Positions 35,692-63,307 of a stretch of DNA of 64,000 bases are shown piece after piece. Position numbers and translations under genes: made by a program. The stretch is from Pseudoglutamicibacter albus (GTDB lineage: Bacteria > Actinomycetota > Actinomycetes > Actinomycetales > Micrococcaceae), in contig NZ_JAKRCW010000003.1 of the NCBI RefSeq assembly GCF_022346425.1, positions 1-64,000 on the forward strand, in the 5' to 3' direction. Under the pieces are notes generated by a model. That model searched no databases. It had not been told where the DNA came from and was given only the letters and a program-made list of their open reading frames with translations. Position 1 is the stretch's first letter. Every line of letters starts with the position of its first letter.

Positions 35692-37224
35692 TCAGGTTCC
35701 TGAATCGGCTTGGACGTCTTCATCAACCCAGTCGAAGCTGCGGTGGACGGCTTTGCGCCAGATGCGTTTCTTCCGCTCGACTCTTTGTTGGTCCTTGGAA
35801 CGGCTGAAGGTGCGCTCCAATTGCCAGTTCTCCTCGATTTCGTCCAGTGAATTCCAGACGCCAACGGCGAGCCCGGCGGCGTAAGCGGCACCGAGTGCCG
35901 TGGTTTCGGTGACGGCCGGCCGTAGAACATCGACACCGAGCAGGTCGGCTTGGAACTGCATCAGGACGTTATTGGTGACCATGCCGCCGTCCACTCGCAG
36001 TTCGGTGAGTTTGCCGTCAACGTCTTCTTCGGCGGCGTCGAAAACGTCAGCGGTTTGGAAGGCTGTCGCTTCCAGTACGGCGCGTGCGATGTGTTCGCGG
36101 GTCACGTACCGGGTGAGCCCAGTCATGACACCGCGGGCTTCGGGCTGCCACCACGGAGCGTAGAGTCCGGAGAAGGCCGGGACGATGTAGCAGCCGCCGG
36201 AGTCTTCAACTTCGCTCGCTAGCTCTTCGATCTGTGGGGCGTGTTCGAACATCTTGAGGTTGTCGCGTAGCCATTGAACCAGCGAGCCTGCTACTGCGAT
36301 GGAACCTTCCAAGGCGTAGACGGGTTCTTGACCGTCGAGCTGATAGGCGATCGTTGTCAAGAGGCCTTTGGTGCTGCGCGCCGGTGTGGTTCCGGTGTTG
36401 TACATAACGAAGCAGCCGGTTCCGTAAGTGTTTTTGGCTTGGCCTGGTTTGAACGCTGCTTGTCCGAAGAGGGCTGCTTGTTGGTCACCGAGGATTCCTG
36501 CGATGGGAAGGCCTGCCCCGGGGTTGTCGCTACTGATGTGCCCGATGTGCCCGGATGATGTCACGATGCGGGGCAGCATCGCTTCAGGGATGTTGAAGTC
36601 GTTGAGGATGCTGGGTTCCCATGCTTGTTTGCGTAGGTTCATGAGCATGGTTCGGGACGCGTTGGTCACGTCGGTCACGTGCAGGCCTCCGTCTGGGCCG
36701 CCTGTGAGATTCCAGATGACCCAGGTGTCCATGGTTCCTGCAAGGAGTTCCCCGGCTTCTGCGCGTTTCTGCAGTTGCGGGTCTGTATCGAGGATCCAGC
36801 GCAGCTTGGTTGCGGAGAAGTATGTTGCTAGCGGCAGGCCTGTGACTTCGCGGTAGCGGTCGAGCCCACCGTCTTCTTCCATCTCATCGACGATGCGTTG
36901 GGTGCGTGCATCTTGCCACACGATGGCTGGGGTTACGGGCTCGCCGGTTGCGGCGTCCCATACAAGGATGGTTTCGCGTTGATTCGTGATGCCGATTCCC
37001 TGGACGGCGCTGGCCCTCTCCCCGAGGGTATCCAACAGTTCGGCTAATACGGCTGTGACATTGTCCCGGATTTCGGTCGCATCATGTTCGACCCAGCCTG
37101 GCAGGGGGAAGTGCTGTTGATGTTCACGTTGGGCCACTGCTTGCTGCTGACCGCGTTCATCGAAGGCGATAGCCCGGGAGGATGTGGTGCCTTGATCGAT
37201 CGCCACAATAAGTTTTTGTGTCAT
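35692..37224 (-). CDS. glpK: Glycerol kinase
   Basis: FGGY-family kinase making sn-glycerol-3-phosphate; 510 aa. Motifs: AIDQGTTSSRAIAFD (phosphate loop), GITNQRET, IVWQDART, and KNTYGTGCFVMYNTG with a downstream adenosine motif. No membrane facilitator glpF is adjacent. An operator-like sequence overlaps codons 2-7, and an array of similar sites lies upstream, so it may be controlled by the divergent NrtR-type regulator. Confidence 0.97.
   Translation of the reverse strand: MTQKLIVAIDQGTTSSRAIAFDERGQQQAVAQREHQQHFPLPGWVEHDATEIRDNVTAVLAELLDTLGERASAVQGIGITNQRETILVWDAATGEPVTPAIVWQDARTQRIVDEMEEDGGLDRYREVTGLPLATYFSATKLRWILDTDPQLQKRAEAGELLAGTMDTWVIWNLTGGPDGGLHVTDVTNASRTMLMNLRKQAWEPSILNDFNIPEAMLPRIVTSSGHIGHISSDNPGAGLPIAGILGDQQAALFGQAAFKPGQAKNTYGTGCFVMYNTGTTPARSTKGLLTTIAYQLDGQEPVYALEGSIAVAGSLVQWLRDNLKMFEHAPQIEELASEVEDSGGCYIVPAFSGLYAPWWQPEARGVMTGLTRYVTREHIARAVLEATAFQTADVFDAAEEDVDGKLTELRVDGGMVTNNVLMQFQADLLGVDVLRPAVTETTALGAAYAAGLAVGVWNSLDEIEENWQLERTFSRSKDQQRVERKKRIWRKAVHRSFDWVDEDVQADSGT
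37203..37220. promoter_or_regulatory. Operator-like site overlapping the glpK start
   Basis: CCACAATAAGTTTTTGTG matches the array consensus TGACAATAAGTAATTGTC at 13 of 18 positions, including the ACAATAAGT core and TTGT arm. It lies in glpK codons 2-7 and is not in 22-bp phase with the array. The protein sequence constrains these bases, so chance is possible. Confidence 0.4.
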
Positions 37225-37342
37225 GAAGCCCTCGATGATGTGCGTGGGTTGTTAAGAGTCTCAAAGCATCGTAGCGAGCGCGCGAGGTGAGCGCGACGTC
37301 AGGCATGCTTCGAGGCAAGGTGAAACCTGCCTATTGCGGCAG

Positions 37343-37514
37343 TGACAATAAGTAATTGTCCGGGTGACATTTGCTTAGTGTCGCCGCGACAACAACTTAT
37401 TGTGTATCTGACCGGAACTAATTGTATAGGTGGCAATAACTAATTGTGCGAGTGACACTAAGTACCTGCTGTGGCGGCAATATGTAATTGTTTGCATGAC
37501 AATATGTAGGTAGA
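37343..37514. repeat. Eight tandem 22-bp operator-like units
   Basis: Eight 18-bp units begin at 37343, 37365, 37387, 37409, 37431, 37453, 37475 and 37497, exactly 22 bp apart with variable 4-bp spacers. The consensus is TGACAATAA(G/C)TAATTGTN; G2, C4 and T11 are invariant. The first unit is the best palindrome (GACAAT-N5-ATTGTC). A degenerate ninth may start at 37321. The array fills the glpK/NrtR intergenic region and overlaps the NrtR promoter. Likely operators of that regulator. Confidence 0.85.
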
Positions 37515-37516
37515 GT
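37488..37516 (+). promoter_or_regulatory. Promoter of the NrtR-type gene, leaderless
   Basis: -35 TTGTTT (37488-37493), 17-bp spacer, -10 TAGAGT (37511-37516), then 7 nt to the ATG at 37524. Units 7 and 8 of the array overlap the -35 and fill the spacer, so a bound regulator would repress its own gene. Confidence 0.6.
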
Positions 37517-37523
37517 TGCTTGC

Positions 37524-38321
37524 ATGCACTCCTGGGCTAATGTCACTGAACGCCGTAACCTCCAGCCCGAACTGGCGGTTTCGGTGATCGTTTTCGCTTT
37601 CTTCAAGAAGCCGGCAGACTCCAGCAACACCGATAGTTCTCAGCTCAAAAACCACTCTGAAGCACTGCCCTATCGCATTCAGATTCCGCTCATAGAACGG
37701 GTACGTGAGCCCTTCTGCGGCCGCTACGCGATCCCCGGGGCACCGGTTCAAGCTGCGCTTTCCCTCGATGATTCTGCAGCGGAGATCTTCACCCGCGTCA
37801 CCGGTTTGAACGGTTATCAGCCGCAACAGCTACACACGTTCGGCGGCCTGTATCGCGCCGCTTGCCAGCGCCGCACCTCTGGGCAAGATGGGCTCTCACC
37901 CGACATCTCAGAGGATTCCCTGCACGTGGGCAGCTTGCGGGTGGTCACGGTTGCATACTGGTCCATGGTGCGCCTGGATGACGTTGATGCCGCGTATCAA
38001 GTCGCTGAAGCGGACCCACGGCTGAGCTGGTGGGACATCGATGACTTGCCGCCTCTGGCCTTCGATCACGGCCACATCATCGCTCAAGCCCGGCAAGCCT
38101 TGCGCGAAATCGAATTGGACGAGCTCGCTCACGCGAGCCTGCCATCGAAGTTCATCCTCGCTGACTTACGTGAACTCGTCGAAACCATCCAAGGGCAACA
38201 GCTGGACCCTGGGAACTTTCAACGCAGCATCAAAAACCAGCCTCGGATCAAAGCCACCTCAGAATTCCTGGAGGGCACCAAACACAGGCCGCCGAGGCTT
38301 TACACGCTTGAGTCACCCTAA
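37524..38321 (+). CDS. NrtR-type (Nudix-related) transcriptional regulator
   Basis: 265 aa. An N-terminal Nudix-like domain (about 15-150) lacks catalysis: where REUXEEXGU is expected it has AAEIFTRVTGL, so it would bind rather than hydrolyse its ligand. The C-terminal winged helix (about 195-255: FILADLRELVETIQG, DPGNFQRSI, RLYTLES) is typical of NrtR. Known NrtR proteins control NAD metabolism (ADP-ribose ligand) or sugar use. No nad gene is nearby; it sits between glpK and glpD, divergent from an eight-site array that covers its own promoter. Autoregulation is very likely; glycerol control is inferred. Confidence 0.82.
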   Translation: MHSWANVTERRNLQPELAVSVIVFAFFKKPADSSNTDSSQLKNHSEALPYRIQIPLIERVREPFCGRYAIPGAPVQAALSLDDSAAEIFTRVTGLNGYQPQQLHTFGGLYRAACQRRTSGQDGLSPDISEDSLHVGSLRVVTVAYWSMVRLDDVDAAYQVAEADPRLSWWDIDDLPPLAFDHGHIIAQARQALREIELDELAHASLPSKFILADLRELVETIQGQQLDPGNFQRSIKNQPRIKATSEFLEGTKHRPPRLYTLESP

Positions 38322-38376
38322 GCGGGGACCCTGCCGGTCACGCTCGTGCCAGTTCGGCGGTGAAGCCAAAGGGGCC

Positions 38377-40275
38377 TCACGCCCGCGCCGTACTGGCCTC
38401 CAAGATCTCCTCGATCTCACGCACGAGTGCATCTTCCCCCACATCGCCTTGAGCCGCAGTATCTTTACCGGCTTCAACGCTGAGGGCTGTGTCCTGTCTC
38501 ACGATCCCATTGAAACGCAGGTTCGTGCGGCGCCTGAGGATGTCTTCGGCGTTCGTGGCGTGTTCGCGCTCCGCCATCCACGCGACCTCGCCTCTCAGCA
38601 ACTCCCGCGTGTGCGCAAGAGGGTGTGCAGCGTCGGGATCTGTTCCTGAGTCGATGAGGTGTGCGATGAAGTTCGCGACCTCGTTCGCATACGAACCGTA
38701 GCGCTTAACGAGAGCGCGGGCGTAGGTGGCGCCAACCACTGCTTCGCAGTCCTTGGTGGGGTCGTCACCGCGGATCATCCCTTTGATGTCGCGACCGCGC
38801 GTGGTTCTGATGCGGTCGCGGTCAAGCTGATCCAGAGCCTGATCGGTGAGCTGCTCCCCGACCGCACGGAACGTAGTGAGCTTTCCACCCACAAGGCACA
38901 ACAGTGGGATCTCGATGCTCTTTACCCGGCCGTTGCGGGTCCCTCGCATGCTGTGGCTCAGGTGCACGATGTGGTGGTCACGCGTGATGGCGCCTGTCGC
39001 GTTAGCGTTTGATCGCGGTAGCGGCCGCACCCCAGCGAAAGTGTGAACCACGTGCTCGTCACTGATCGGGATCGTCGGGAACATATCCTGGACAAGCTCA
39101 AGCAGATATTCGTATTCCTCATCGGAGCATTCGGGTACTTCCCCGGGGTCCGCGGGTAAGTCAGTTGTTCCGACGAGTACGCGTTCGCCCAGCGGGCAGA
39201 TCAACACGATGCGGCCGTCTTGATGTTCAAAGAAAATCTCGCCGCCGCGGCATGCTTCAAGTAGTTGAGGGTGATCCAGAACCAAGTGTGCACCTTTGGT
39301 TCCACCCATGAACGAGGTTTCATGCCCCAAAGCACGGTTAGTGAGGTCAACCCAGTTACCGGTGGCGTTGATAATGACGCGGGGTCGAACCTGGATGTGT
39401 TGGCCAGTGAGCTGGTCAGTCAACGTGATCGCATCGGATGCATCGATAGTGCTTGCCGTGGTGCCGGTCAAAGCCAGCTGATTTGCGATGCGGGCCCCGT
39501 GATCTTCGGCCTCACTCAGCAGATCGATAATGAGACGCTCAGGGCTATCGACCTGAGCGTCTTGATACTGCGCGACAAAGCGAGTATCCGGGCGCAGGTC
39601 AGGGAACGCGCGCCGTACAGCTTGACGCCCCAGCAAGAAGGAATGCCGTTTAAGGCCTGCCGCTTTCCTACTCGCACGGGAGTATGTGTCATAGAGCACA
39701 AGCCCGGCCTTGATCATCAACGCCCCGCGTTCAGCCGGGACGCCGCGATAGTCCTTGAAGAGAAAACGTAGCGGAGCATTTAAAAGACCCGTGAGGGTTG
39801 TACGCAAAGGAATGAACGTGGGCAACGGGCGCACCCGATGCCCGGCATGACGCAAAAGACGGTTACGTTCCTGGACCGACTCCTTCACTAGCCGGAACTC
39901 GCCATACTCCAAGTAACGGATACCGCCGTGAATCATATGGCTGGATGCGCCGCTTGCCCCGTATGCGAAATCATGAGCTTCCGCGAGCACAACGTCGATG
40001 CCCTGCAACGCCAACTCACGCGCCGCTGCCGCGCCGTTGATACCGCCACCAAGGATCAAAACATCGGTTTCCGGACGCTGCGCGATCCGCTGGACCGAGG
40101 CCCGCACCGGCGCTGTCCCCGCCGCATGCCTACCCCTTGCTAGATTCAATGGTGGAGCAAGCGAGGATGATGGATCTACCGGAGCAGAGCCGAGCCCAGA
40201 TGAAGTAAGTGGAGCGGAGCAGGCTGGAGCAGAGCCGGCTGGATCAGTATCGGCGTGGTGGTCCTTGGAATGCAT
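38377..40275 (-). CDS. glpD: Glycerol-3-phosphate dehydrogenase (FAD-dependent)
   Basis: Membrane-associated flavoprotein oxidising glycerol-3-phosphate to DHAP; the step after GlpK. The FAD motif is DVLILGGGINGAAAARELA, followed by HMIHGGIRYLEYGEFRLV and a C-terminal DAO domain. The N-terminus before the FAD fold is about 65-90 residues of low-complexity Ala/Ser/Pro sequence, longer than usual, and contains a duplicated 12-mer (GGAGCAGAGCCG on the plus strand at 40181 and 40226, 15 codons apart). Starts at 40275, 40284 or 40353 are possible; none has a strong ribosome binding site. Confidence 0.92.
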   Translation of the reverse strand: MHSKDHHADTDPAGSAPACSAPLTSSGLGSAPVDPSSSLAPPLNLARGRHAAGTAPVRASVQRIAQRPETDVLILGGGINGAAAARELALQGIDVVLAEAHDFAYGASGASSHMIHGGIRYLEYGEFRLVKESVQERNRLLRHAGHRVRPLPTFIPLRTTLTGLLNAPLRFLFKDYRGVPAERGALMIKAGLVLYDTYSRASRKAAGLKRHSFLLGRQAVRRAFPDLRPDTRFVAQYQDAQVDSPERLIIDLLSEAEDHGARIANQLALTGTTASTIDASDAITLTDQLTGQHIQVRPRVIINATGNWVDLTNRALGHETSFMGGTKGAHLVLDHPQLLEACRGGEIFFEHQDGRIVLICPLGERVLVGTTDLPADPGEVPECSDEEYEYLLELVQDMFPTIPISDEHVVHTFAGVRPLPRSNANATGAITRDHHIVHLSHSMRGTRNGRVKSIEIPLLCLVGGKLTTFRAVGEQLTDQALDQLDRDRIRTTRGRDIKGMIRGDDPTKDCEAVVGATYARALVKRYGSYANEVANFIAHLIDSGTDPDAAHPLAHTRELLRGEVAWMAEREHATNAEDILRRRTNLRFNGIVRQDTALSVEAGKDTAAQGDVGEDALVREIEEILEASTARA

Positions 40276-40354
40276 ACCGACCATCTTGCCCGGATGAACT
40301 TCAGGCAACAAGCGCAACCTCAGACGAAAACCGCAATAACACCTACTGGACACA

Positions 40355-40360
40355 TAAGGT
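40355..40360 (+). promoter_or_regulatory. -10 box for the alpha/beta hydrolase, probably leaderless
   Basis: TAAGGT ends 6 nt before the GTG at 40367, with no Shine-Dalgarno between. Confidence 0.45.
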
Positions 40361-40366
40361 TAAAAC

Positions 40367-41332
40367 GTGAGTAAACCCAGCATCACCAAACACCCATACC
40401 CCGACTCTCTCGCGCTCGCCGCAAGCCCTTTAGACGATGACCGGGACTCGCTGTATTTCGACCTCACGGTATGCGGTTCACGCATGCGCACGTGGGTGTA
40501 TCCAGCGCAGCAGAATGCATCAGGTGAACAAGGCGCTGCGGGATCTCGTGTGGTGCTTGCGATCCATGGTTTCCGCGGGGACCATCACGGCCTACGTCGC
40601 CTCATCAACGCAATGCCTGAGCACACCTGGATTGTCCCGGATCTACCCGGCTACGGGGTCTCTAGCGCGTTTGATACCCAACAGGCACGCCACAGCGCTA
40701 TAGGCTTTCACGAAGTCATCGACGCCCTCATCGATGCCCTCGAGTTGGATGATGATACGGTCCTGCTCGGCCACTCGTTCGGCTCGGTCGTCGCCTCGAC
40801 CTATATGGCCGCCAATCCGGGGCGTTTCGGGCAGCTCATCCTGATCAACCCGATCTCCGAGCCACCGCTGGCAGGCCGCCACATCGTGTTGACCCAGGCA
40901 ACCCGCTTGCTTTATGAGCTCGGGACCCGGGTTCCAGCGCGCTGGCGCACCGCGGTATTGAGCTCCCCTGCACTCGTTGACGGGGCGAGCCTCACCATGA
41001 CCACAAGCCGTGATCAGGCCACGAGGGAGTATGTCAGGCATCAGCATCGGGCATATATGAGCGGCTTCGCAAGCCCCGAAGTGCTACTGGAAACCTATGA
41101 ATCCTCGGTGCACAGCACGGTGCTCGATGCCGCCGCCGAGGTCGATGCGCCGACACTGCTGATCGCAGGGGCCGGGGATCCGCTCGGCACGGTGGCAAGC
41201 CAGACAGCGCTCGAAGCACTGTTTCCCAACGCGCGGCTCGTGATGATTCCGCAGGTGGGTCACCTGATTCACTATGAAACCCCACGTGCCGCGGCAAGAG
41301 CGATACGCGCGTGGCTCGGCAGGCCCGAATAG
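40367..41332 (+). CDS. Alpha/beta-fold hydrolase
   Basis: 321-aa cytoplasmic hydrolase of unknown substrate. The fold starts with VVLAIHGFRGDHHGLRRL (oxyanion region). The nucleophile elbow is GHSFGS, and the triad is completed by Asp in AGAGDPLG and His in QVGHLIHYE. GTG start, apparently leaderless. It diverges from glpD and converges on priA (6 bp). Lipase, esterase or epoxide-hydrolase-like activity are all possible. Confidence 0.85.
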   Translation: MSKPSITKHPYPDSLALAASPLDDDRDSLYFDLTVCGSRMRTWVYPAQQNASGEQGAAGSRVVLAIHGFRGDHHGLRRLINAMPEHTWIVPDLPGYGVSSAFDTQQARHSAIGFHEVIDALIDALELDDDTVLLGHSFGSVVASTYMAANPGRFGQLILINPISEPPLAGRHIVLTQATRLLYELGTRVPARWRTAVLSSPALVDGASLTMTTSRDQATREYVRHQHRAYMSGFASPEVLLETYESSVHSTVLDAAAEVDAPTLLIAGAGDPLGTVASQTALEALFPNARLVMIPQVGHLIHYETPRAAARAIRAWLGRPE

Positions 41333-61698: not shown

Positions 61699-63307
61699 CC
61701 GGATGATCAGCACACCACTTGCGGTACTCACGCACGTAGCGTTCGTGCTGCTCGAGGTTATCCGAATACTTCGTCTCACCCGTGGTCAGGTTGACCGTAA
61801 CCCAGTAATAGTCGCCGCTCTCATCAGGCTTCGCAGCGCCAGCGATCGCGACAGGGCCAGGGGAACCGATCGGGGTTGGGGGCAAGCCTTGATGGGTGTA
61901 GGTGTTGTACTTGTTCTTCTTGTCTTCCAACTCGGATTGGGTCAAGTGGACCGTAGTTTTATCCAGGCCGTAGGCCACTGTCGAGTCCAGCTGGAGGTAT
62001 CCGCCGGTCTCTCGGTTGTCCTTGTGCAGGCGGTTCTCGATGATCCCTGCAACGTGCGGGTAGTCATCCCGCGGAGCCTCGCCTGCGATGATCGAGGCGA
62101 TCTTGAGCACACGGTACTGCTCAGCCGGGTCCGTCACGCCGTTCTTCTTGAGTTCTTCCTTGGTCTTATCAATCAGGGTCTGAAGGACCTGTTCAGGTTT
62201 AGTCTTCAACGGGAAGCGGTAGTCCCCCGGATGCAGATAACCCTCAATGTTCTTCGCTTCCTCAGGCAGGCCGAAGCGTTCCGGGTCGTTAGCTAGTTCT
62301 TCCAATGTGGCTCTTGGAATATCGGTTCCTTCAGCTATCGCTTGCAAAGCAGCATCCAGGCGCACATTGGCAGGTAGTGCGAAATACGTGACTGCCTCAC
62401 GGTCAGTCAACATCTTGATTGCCGCGTCAGAGGACATCTCTTTACGCAACTTGTATTCGCCAGGCTGGAAGACCGGTGTTGGTGAACTCGCACCCACCTT
62501 CTTCACAAACGTGGATGCGTCCATCACAACGCCACGGTCTTGAAGGTGAGCGGCAATCTGGCGGGTGGTCCACCCCTGCTCGATCGAGACATCAACCTGC
62601 CCCTGACCACTTCCTACATAGTCAGGATCCGGTTTATTCAGCTCGCGATGCAGGAAGAAACCAGCCCCACCGACAACCAAGATCAAAACTAAAACGACCG
62701 CCACGAGGTTGAAGCGGCGGCGTTTACGGCGGCGGCGGCGCTCGGTGAGATCAGCCTCGGATTCAGAGAAGAAATCCTCGGCCGGAAGATAGCCCGCCGG
62801 CACATCGTCGAAATGACGAGCTAACGCGCCCGCGAACCCAACATCTTCAGTGTCGTGTTCAGCAGCTTCAGCATCGGCCTGTGAAAGCCATTCACGCTCA
62901 TCAAAATCAGCGTCAGGTTCTGGCCGGGAAGAAAAAGCAGCATGCGAGCTAGACGCTGCGCCTGCTGGTGCGGCACCCGGAACCACAGCGAGAGTCGAAG
63001 TCCCACCTGGAGCTAAATCGAGCTCGTCATCAACGTGGTTCTCAAAAGAAGGAGTGTCCTGCAGATCGTATTCGTCTGAGAAGTCAGCTTCTAAAGGTTC
63101 GTCCAGGCGGGTATCTAAGGGAGCCACCGGCTCAAGCTGTGCCGCCAAATGCATCTCGATGACCGCATCAGTGACCCGGCAGTGACGCCCCACACCGGTG
63201 AAACGCGAAGCACCATGAGAGCGCGTCGATTCGGCACGGCGGCGCGCTCGACGCGAGGAATAACCCTCTGGTGGTATGTATGTCACTGAGTAATCCTTAC
63301 GTGTCAT
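61682..63307 (-). CDS. mltG: Endolytic peptidoglycan transglycosylase MltG
   Basis: Cleaves nascent peptidoglycan to set strand length; 541 aa. The cytoplasmic tail (1-198) is long, acidic and disordered. One membrane helix (200-219) precedes the LysM-like and YceG catalytic domains (ASIIAGEAPRDDYPHVAGII, LDSTVAYGL, NTYTHQGLPPTPIGSPG). Coupled to aroE. Confidence 0.93.
   Translation of the reverse strand: MTRKDYSVTYIPPEGYSSRRARRRAESTRSHGASRFTGVGRHCRVTDAVIEMHLAAQLEPVAPLDTRLDEPLEADFSDEYDLQDTPSFENHVDDELDLAPGGTSTLAVVPGAAPAGAASSSHAAFSSRPEPDADFDEREWLSQADAEAAEHDTEDVGFAGALARHFDDVPAGYLPAEDFFSESEADLTERRRRRKRRRFNLVAVVLVLILVVGGAGFFLHRELNKPDPDYVGSGQGQVDVSIEQGWTTRQIAAHLQDRGVVMDASTFVKKVGASSPTPVFQPGEYKLRKEMSSDAAIKMLTDREAVTYFALPANVRLDAALQAIAEGTDIPRATLEELANDPERFGLPEEAKNIEGYLHPGDYRFPLKTKPEQVLQTLIDKTKEELKKNGVTDPAEQYRVLKIASIIAGEAPRDDYPHVAGIIENRLHKDNRETGGYLQLDSTVAYGLDKTTVHLTQSELEDKKNKYNTYTHQGLPPTPIGSPGPVAIAGAAKPDESGDYYWVTVNLTTGETKYSDNLEQHERYVREYRKWCADHPDECNA

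Follow-up and report, generated by a model that had tools for sequence, protein, structure and literature searches.

The locus studied here raises the question of why a regulator gene of the NrtR type in Pseudoglutamicibacter albus should be preceded by eight evenly spaced repeats and seated between glpK and a glpD-like gene. The window analyzed is a stretch of 64,000 nucleotides on contig C28 of a 2.22-Mb genome that is 99.94% complete (G000), and among named relatives Pseudoglutamicibacter cumminsii IME1328 (L007), Micrococcaceae, is the nearest. On one side, glpK (35692..37224, minus strand; TIGR01311, 712.7 bits) is the divergent neighbor, and it occupies the same place in L007, L011, and L012. 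On the other side lies a gene for a glpD-like FAD oxidoreductase (38377..40353, minus strand), whose match to NF008899 (E 9.3e-83) is under the curated cut-off. The regulator gene between them (37524..38321, plus strand) codes for a protein of 265 amino acids with an apparently degenerate Nudix-like part and an NrtR winged helix.

The array in front of the regulator gene contains eight units starting at 37343 + 22k with zero drift, exactly as a sequence-only reading of this DNA had described. The G2, C4, and T11 that it named as conserved are identical in all eight units, and so is the T of column 15. Self-identity in 176-bp windows reached 0.58 at lag 22 and 0.61 at lag 44, compared with a best value of 0.46 elsewhere in the 64-kb window (lags 10-59). 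The 17-bp core of the units, with up to 3 mismatches allowed, matched 6 times on both strands of the 2.22-Mb genome, and all of these matches were within the array; unit 1 was matched on both strands, and control matches were 0. By eye, units 6 and 8 lack the right arm, and an extra left half-site, CTATTGC, lies at 37331-37337, just beyond the units as first drawn. Units of the same parity were more alike (2 of 35 partitions as extreme), and the resulting 44-bp signal is marginal.

Mean pairwise identity among the units was 0.655 in columns 1-17 and 0.257 in the spacer columns 18-22 (P = 0.009, permutation of columns), the latter value being at the chance level when compared with the 0.294 expected from spacer base composition. 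This agrees with the earlier claim that the period and the half-sites were kept while the spacers varied. In a star-tree simulation, spacers as divergent as those observed required the units to be separated by at least about 1.5 substitutions per site (P = 0.031 at 1.5, 0.0045 at 1.2, and 0.0005 at 1.0), with the five columns chosen after seeing the data and neutrality assumed. Recent duplication of the units, which the sequence-only reading had also argued against, was rejected on the chance-level spacer identity together with this simulation.

The protein encoded downstream had been called an NrtR-type regulator, and the profile searches confirmed this. NrtR_WHD (PF21906) matched with an E-value of 1.8e-12 and 47.6 bits (cut-off 27), indicating a C-terminal winged helix. 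Among the PDB chains, 5bs6 (AraR) matched at E 5.2e-18 and 3gz5 at E 6.2e-9; 3gz5 and 3gz6 are given as Shewanella NrtR. The AraR chain aligns to residues 52-112 (E 0.0024) and 139-250 of the regulator. A Pfam Nudix match is absent. The alignment with relatives extends over the whole protein, and by eye the Nudix box looks degenerate. The NCBIfam model NF050029, an equivalog for the ADPR-responsive repressor, gave 35 bits against a curated cut-off of 400. The second G of LPGG is conserved in 27 of 27 aligned relatives and is A in this regulator (PGA). The ligand-binding half shows about 16 extra residues (codons 112-138) besides the changed LPGG at codon 73. In addition, Cys65 of the regulator is Arg in the second genome of this species (G087) and in the congeners.

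The upstream regions of NrtR genes in other genera contain the palindrome AGTTATAGTCA-N3-TGACTATAACT. A symmetric matrix was built from 23 such operators (21 of the family, together with L023 and L024 of the order), none of them from this genus; these represent 23 of the 27 loci outside the genus, and L013, L014, L017, and L032 were omitted as they have no site with at least 15 matches. With this matrix, the predicted NrtR operators of the array are 25-mers starting at 37329 + 22k. They are half a period off the units as first drawn, so that their centers fall on the unit boundaries and each of those units consists of the right half of one predicted operator and the left half of the next. The mean score was 10.6 in the operator phase and -14.2 or lower in the other 21 phases. 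The 18-bp units that had been proposed as operators are out of phase, and operators in that phase are ruled out by the matrix scores, the best being -34.6 compared with 5 to 17 for seven canonical sites. The broader proposal, that the array consists of operators of the downstream NrtR, holds in this shifted form, as the matrix predicts operators of the family there. The regulator gene is therefore preceded by its own palindromic operator with the motif of its relatives according to the matrix, the single sites being weak.

The predicted operators differ in strength along the array. Operator 1 (37329..37353, center 37341) has a degenerate left half (CTATTGC) and a score of 5.1, which places it 11th in the window; over the matrix variants described below, its rank is 10-13. 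It is followed by operator 2 (37351..37375, center 37363; score 15.2, rank 1-4), operator 3 (37373..37397, center 37385; score 13.0, rank 1-5), which has 2 mismatches to TTATNGTC-N5-GACNATAA, and operator 4 (37395..37419, center 37407; rank 1-3), whose score of 17.2 is the best of the window. Operator 5 (37417..37441, center 37429) scores 14.0 (rank 4-5) and operator 6 (37439..37463, center 37451) scores 15.6 (rank 2-3), while operator 7 (37461..37485, center 37473) is degenerate, with a score of -7.6 and rank 115-348. Operator 8 (37483..37507, center 37495; score 11.9, rank 6-7) ends 16 bp before the start codon of the regulator. Seven of the eight canonical sites thus score above 5, indicating two or more predicted tandem operators of the same regulator, and the six best matrix sites of the 64-kb window are all in the array and in a single phase. 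The matrix was varied in 12 ways, by imposing or dropping symmetry, by using three pseudocounts, and by taking the operators of the family or the whole set; each time, operators 2-6 took ranks 1-5 and operator 8 took rank 6-7 of the window, and the best eight-tooth 22-bp comb started at 37329.

All eight array operators score below the single one of the congeners (-7.6 to 17.2 compared with 23.9). When a local profile made of 22 of the 23 matrix operators (L024 omitted) and one congener operator was run on the window, it returned operator 3 alone, at an E-value of about 1 (0.8-1); when the filters were switched off, a chance site at 61784 outranked operator 3 in the region 5001-64000. Because the single sites are insignificant in the local profile, the identity of the array rests on the full-length scores and the coherent phase; judged from the sequence, the sites are weak singly and convincing as a phased set. 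At a 22-bp step the 25-bp operators are not separate from each other, since neighbors overlap by 3 bp, the left-end AGT and the right-end ACT coinciding as A-S-T. At the middle base that neighbors share (column 10), 4 units have G and 4 have C, and each suits one neighbor. In most copies the left half-site no longer has the C and A of GTCA. On the right, GAC is complete in 6 of 8 half-sites, and all eight retain its G and C. This asymmetry is not explained by a simple symmetric-dimer model.

In two other species of the genus (G001 and G002), the regulator is found at the same locus beside glpK, with one exact TTATTGTC-N5-GACAATAA each, and the single operator of each congener is CCTTATTGTCTTGCTGACAATAACT. 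The gap between glpK and the regulator is 299 nt here, 144 nt in G002, and 155 nt in G001, where a small insertion nearer glpK accounts for the greater length. The difference from G002, 155, equals 7 x 22 + 1. The last operator ends at the same distance from the start codon in all three species, and operator 1 lies 56 bp from the conserved block upstream of glpK, compared with 54 bp in the congeners (hand count). A putative regulator promoter at 37488..37516 (plus strand; TTGTTT-17 bp-TAGAGT, 7 nt to ATG) overlaps operator 8 by eye; it is weak, with 8 of 12 consensus matches, and was absent from the promoter scan listing. The candidate in the congeners, TTGTCT-17-TACAGT-7-ATG, is overlapped by the single operator and is not strong either. 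The regulator start has no obvious ribosome-binding site by eye, and is a candidate for leaderless translation. As for the glpK side, the block at 37250-37300 (AGTCTCAxAGCATCGTAGCGAGC and around) is well conserved in the three species and may represent the glpK promoter or a further operator. At the glpK start of G001 (L007 near 4845; L012 1300-1350), a short duplication in frame, MTQKLTKTQKL, was seen that is absent in the other two species.

The regulator occurs in all four genus genomes compared and the array in two of them, both of one species. All eight units are also present in the second genome of this species, G087, which over 330 bp differs from G000 by 3 substitutions, two of them inside the array. 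The sequence-only reading had tied its proposal to relatives that keep the regulator also keeping a periodic array, and both congeneric species have the regulator without one.

The ancestry of the locus points to NAD biosynthesis. The gene order in L007 is regulator, NadA, QRPTase (nadC), an aminotransferase-V gene, and then the glpD homologue; in both congeneric species, nadA and nadC come after the regulator. Where the congener has these three genes, the window has a regulator-glpD junction of 55 bp (38322..38376), and this same stretch was unmatched when 37201-40400 of the window was compared with L007 by blastn. Neither nadA nor nadC was found in G000, and nadA was also not found in G087, which is a single-contig, 100% complete genome. 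Among eight relatives tested, nadA is beside nrtR in the six that have it (G001, G002, G008, G017, G018, and G027) and absent in two (G004 and G034). The regulator of G000 has no linked NAD biosynthesis genes, in contrast to G001 and G002. Such linkage is usual in the family and not required, as AraR, a family member, controls arabinose genes (PMC4666351). The regulator sits between glpK and glpD largely because nadA and nadC were lost. The pncB gene is present in G000, and therefore the species probably depends on niacin salvage. A related case was seen in genus g3 (L013, L014; G004, G034), where nrtR occurs without nadA in both genomes and with no recognizable upstream operator; it appears to be another orphan NrtR, with the opposite fate of the operator.

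A profile search of whole genomes identified one operator place, at nrtR, in G001, G002, G018, G023, G027, and G033, and no operator at E <= 5 among the candidates scored in G000 and G087. This search scored 150 of the 195-636 first-look candidates per genome (150 of 286 in G000), so that weak sites elsewhere could escape it and further sites stay possible. The pattern TTATNGTC-N5-GACNATAA with up to 3 mismatches occurred at 24 places in G000, six of them in the array, compared with 20 for the reversed control. The only match outside the array with at most 2 mismatches was G000:C22:191060, which lies inside a 270-codon open frame and was counted as chance. No second target of the regulator was visible in G000 in the profile and pattern searches, which weak sites could escape; no operator was found at the pncB locus (best matrix score -1.3), and no operator-like site in the glpD surroundings was among the best 25 of the window. 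The only recognizable target of the regulator would thus be its own promoter region. In G002, the same 21-bp match was found at C1:1162241, 1162676, and 1163111, with a spacing of exactly 435 bp, which suggests a long tandem repeat.

The number of operators was also counted in 29 loci of relatives, with second matches 6 and 10 bp off (L021, L023) removed as self-overlaps. One operator was found in 23 loci, two in 4, and none in 2. The statement that NrtR regulators usually bind one or two sites agrees with these counts. The loci with two tandem operators, L020, L024, L032, and L035, have steps of 35, 35, 34, and 25 bp, respectively, and belong to four other genera, three of the family and one of another family of the order. 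A 22-bp tandem pattern, which is specific to this spacing and would miss arrays of other spacings, matched 7 of 395 family genomes, with two control matches. Two of the seven are this species with its array, and the other five have one match each, four of which look like an ordinary single operator by eye and one (G081) unrelated. No other array of eight was found in the 29 loci or, with the 22-bp pattern, in the 395 genomes, and no multi-copy NrtR operator array was seen among the literature matches listed, which covered few subscription papers and others in part. The array is real and unusual, and tandem NrtR operators already occur in relatives.

Selection and age were assessed by comparison with the congeners. 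The dN/dS of the regulator was 0.15-0.17 against the congeners and 0.13 between the congeners, that of glpK was 0.05-0.06 against the congeners and 0.12 between them (at dS 0.10), and that of leuS was 0.04. From these ratios, the regulator appears to be under purifying selection. Between G000 and G087, the regulator has 4 replacement codons and 3 silent changes, and all four replacements fall before residue 193; in the covered parts, glpK has 1 replacement and 4 silent changes, and glpD has 3 replacements and 5 silent changes. These small numbers hint that the ligand domain is eroding while the DNA-binding domain is retained, and the within-species replacements in the regulator could reflect relaxed constraint. 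Between species, dS was 0.93-1.2 (leuS, glpK, and the regulator). When the spacer divergence is set against this dS, the array appears to date from around the time of the species split, or from before it if the congeners have contracted theirs, and under the assumptions of the simulation this age favors maintained function over recent slippage.

Taken together, we consider it probable that the locus holds an orphan NrtR that regulates its own gene, and that its one operator gave rise to eight predicted ones, which are weak and overlap. This explanation is built on the motif match, the phase, the copy number, the absence of nadA and nadC, the conservation pattern, and the presence of the array in two genomes; binding, repression, cooperativity, alternate occupancy, and a ligand would be the parts of the loop that we infer from them. 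Dimers of the regulator would bind the weak operators with help from their neighbors or through rebinding. Since adjacent operators, 25 bp long and placed every 22 bp, have their terminal A-S-T in common, dimers may occupy alternate operators, 44 bp apart, or neighboring dimers may instead share contacts at A-S-T. Occupancy of every second operator would fit the slightly greater resemblance of same-parity units. BtAraR is an NrtR-family repressor of arabinose genes whose dimer covers 25 bp (PMC4666351); the 22-bp step is shorter than this, so neighbors would be crowded and full occupancy is not obvious. With 10.5 bp per turn, our own arithmetic gives a rotation of about 34 degrees between neighbors and of about 240 degrees between the two ends of the array, and the earlier suggestion that the dimers lie nearly on one face does not apply to the whole array. 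The bound cluster would shut the regulator promoter that overlaps operator 8. The outcome would be tight negative autoregulation, and the array may also titrate the regulator. MsNrtR is described as an auto-repressor (PMC6800001), and by analogy autorepression would be the default expectation for this regulator.

Several other explanations share part of this evidence. The array might serve as a decoy, setting a threshold by absorbing the regulator, with no cooperativity in binding. This would agree with eight weak sites and with the sole other match of at most 2 mismatches being inside an open reading frame; however, a decoy needs no exact step, whereas the 22-bp step is drift-free in eight units and the array length is identical in two genomes, and we regard such titration as a minority possibility that deserves some weight. 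A little less probable in our judgment is an end-sharing lattice, in which selection would hold the 22-bp packing and dimers would share contacts or alternate, giving a collective switch of a repressor that controls only its own level. The weak operators and the near-unrecognizable operator 7 mean that decay is possible, and the whole locus might be a neutral remnant, namely a regulator left over after loss of the operon with an array that grew by slippage or unequal exchange and is now decaying. The replacement codons within the species, all before residue 193 and more numerous than the silent changes, and the changed second G of LPGG point in the same direction. However, the regulator reading frame is full-length in two genomes, its dN/dS against the congeners is 0.15-0.17, the half-sites were kept while the spacers were randomized, and the copy number is equal in both genomes although the array seems to go back to about the species split, so that a neutral remnant seems unlikely.

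A link to glycerol had been raised earlier. It was given up as the main hypothesis, because the sites that score highest in the window belong to the array, the NAD genes come after the regulator in both congeners, and the window's best 25 sites contain none near glpD. In a stronger form of this idea, the array now controls glpK, and an NAD regulator has been recruited to glycerol metabolism. The divergent position of glpK in three species of the genus and the nearly unchanged distance of operator 1 from the glpK block are consistent with such rewiring. However, even the operator closest to that block is about 56 bp upstream and the block itself is free of operators, the congeners share the glpK arrangement with the NAD genes on the other side, and tblastn found no glpK beside nrtR in other genera (L013-L039, about 1.5 kb of flank each). 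Rewiring is the explanation that we find hardest to credit, and an orphan regulator acting on its own promoter through multiplied operators remains our preferred one.

The array can be compared with several known systems. PHO boxes, the sites of PhoB-type regulators, are likewise arranged in tandem with a period near 22 bp. Unlike the array, they are direct repeats, on which response regulators of the OmpR type bind head to tail. HspR belongs to a different protein family from NrtR. At its own promoter in H. pylori, HspR is autoregulatory, and cooperative loading of three dimers over about 70 bp has been proposed; it has one nucleating motif, in contrast to the regular array here (PMC6102357). 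BtAraR shares the family fold and tandem semi-palindromic operators with this regulator. However, a gap of 3 bp separates its two 21-bp sites (of 42 nt in two species), and its ligand is L-arabinose (PMC4666351), whereas there are eight sites here with a 22-bp step and overlapping ends. The NrtR regulators of nad operons, namely MsNrtR (PMC6800001) and the relatives examined here, have in common with this one the winged helix, the upstream palindromic operator, and the expected autoregulation; their impaired Nudix-like domain is probably matched here as well. They differ in having one operator, or two in 4 of 29 loci, where there are eight here, and in the adjoining nadA of the six tested relatives that have the gene, where there is no nadA or nadC here.

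These results indicate that a regulator gene was kept while its operon vanished and its operator multiplied. They also correct an easy annotation error, as the glpK and glpD neighbors suggest glycerol control while the ancestry points to NAD. Sister species with one and eight operators at a shared locus, equally far from the start codon, provide a natural comparison, which makes a general question testable, namely whether tandem weak sites lead to cooperative switching, to titration, or to nothing. If the end-sharing lattice were true, this repressor would be a regulatory loop that outlived its pathway.
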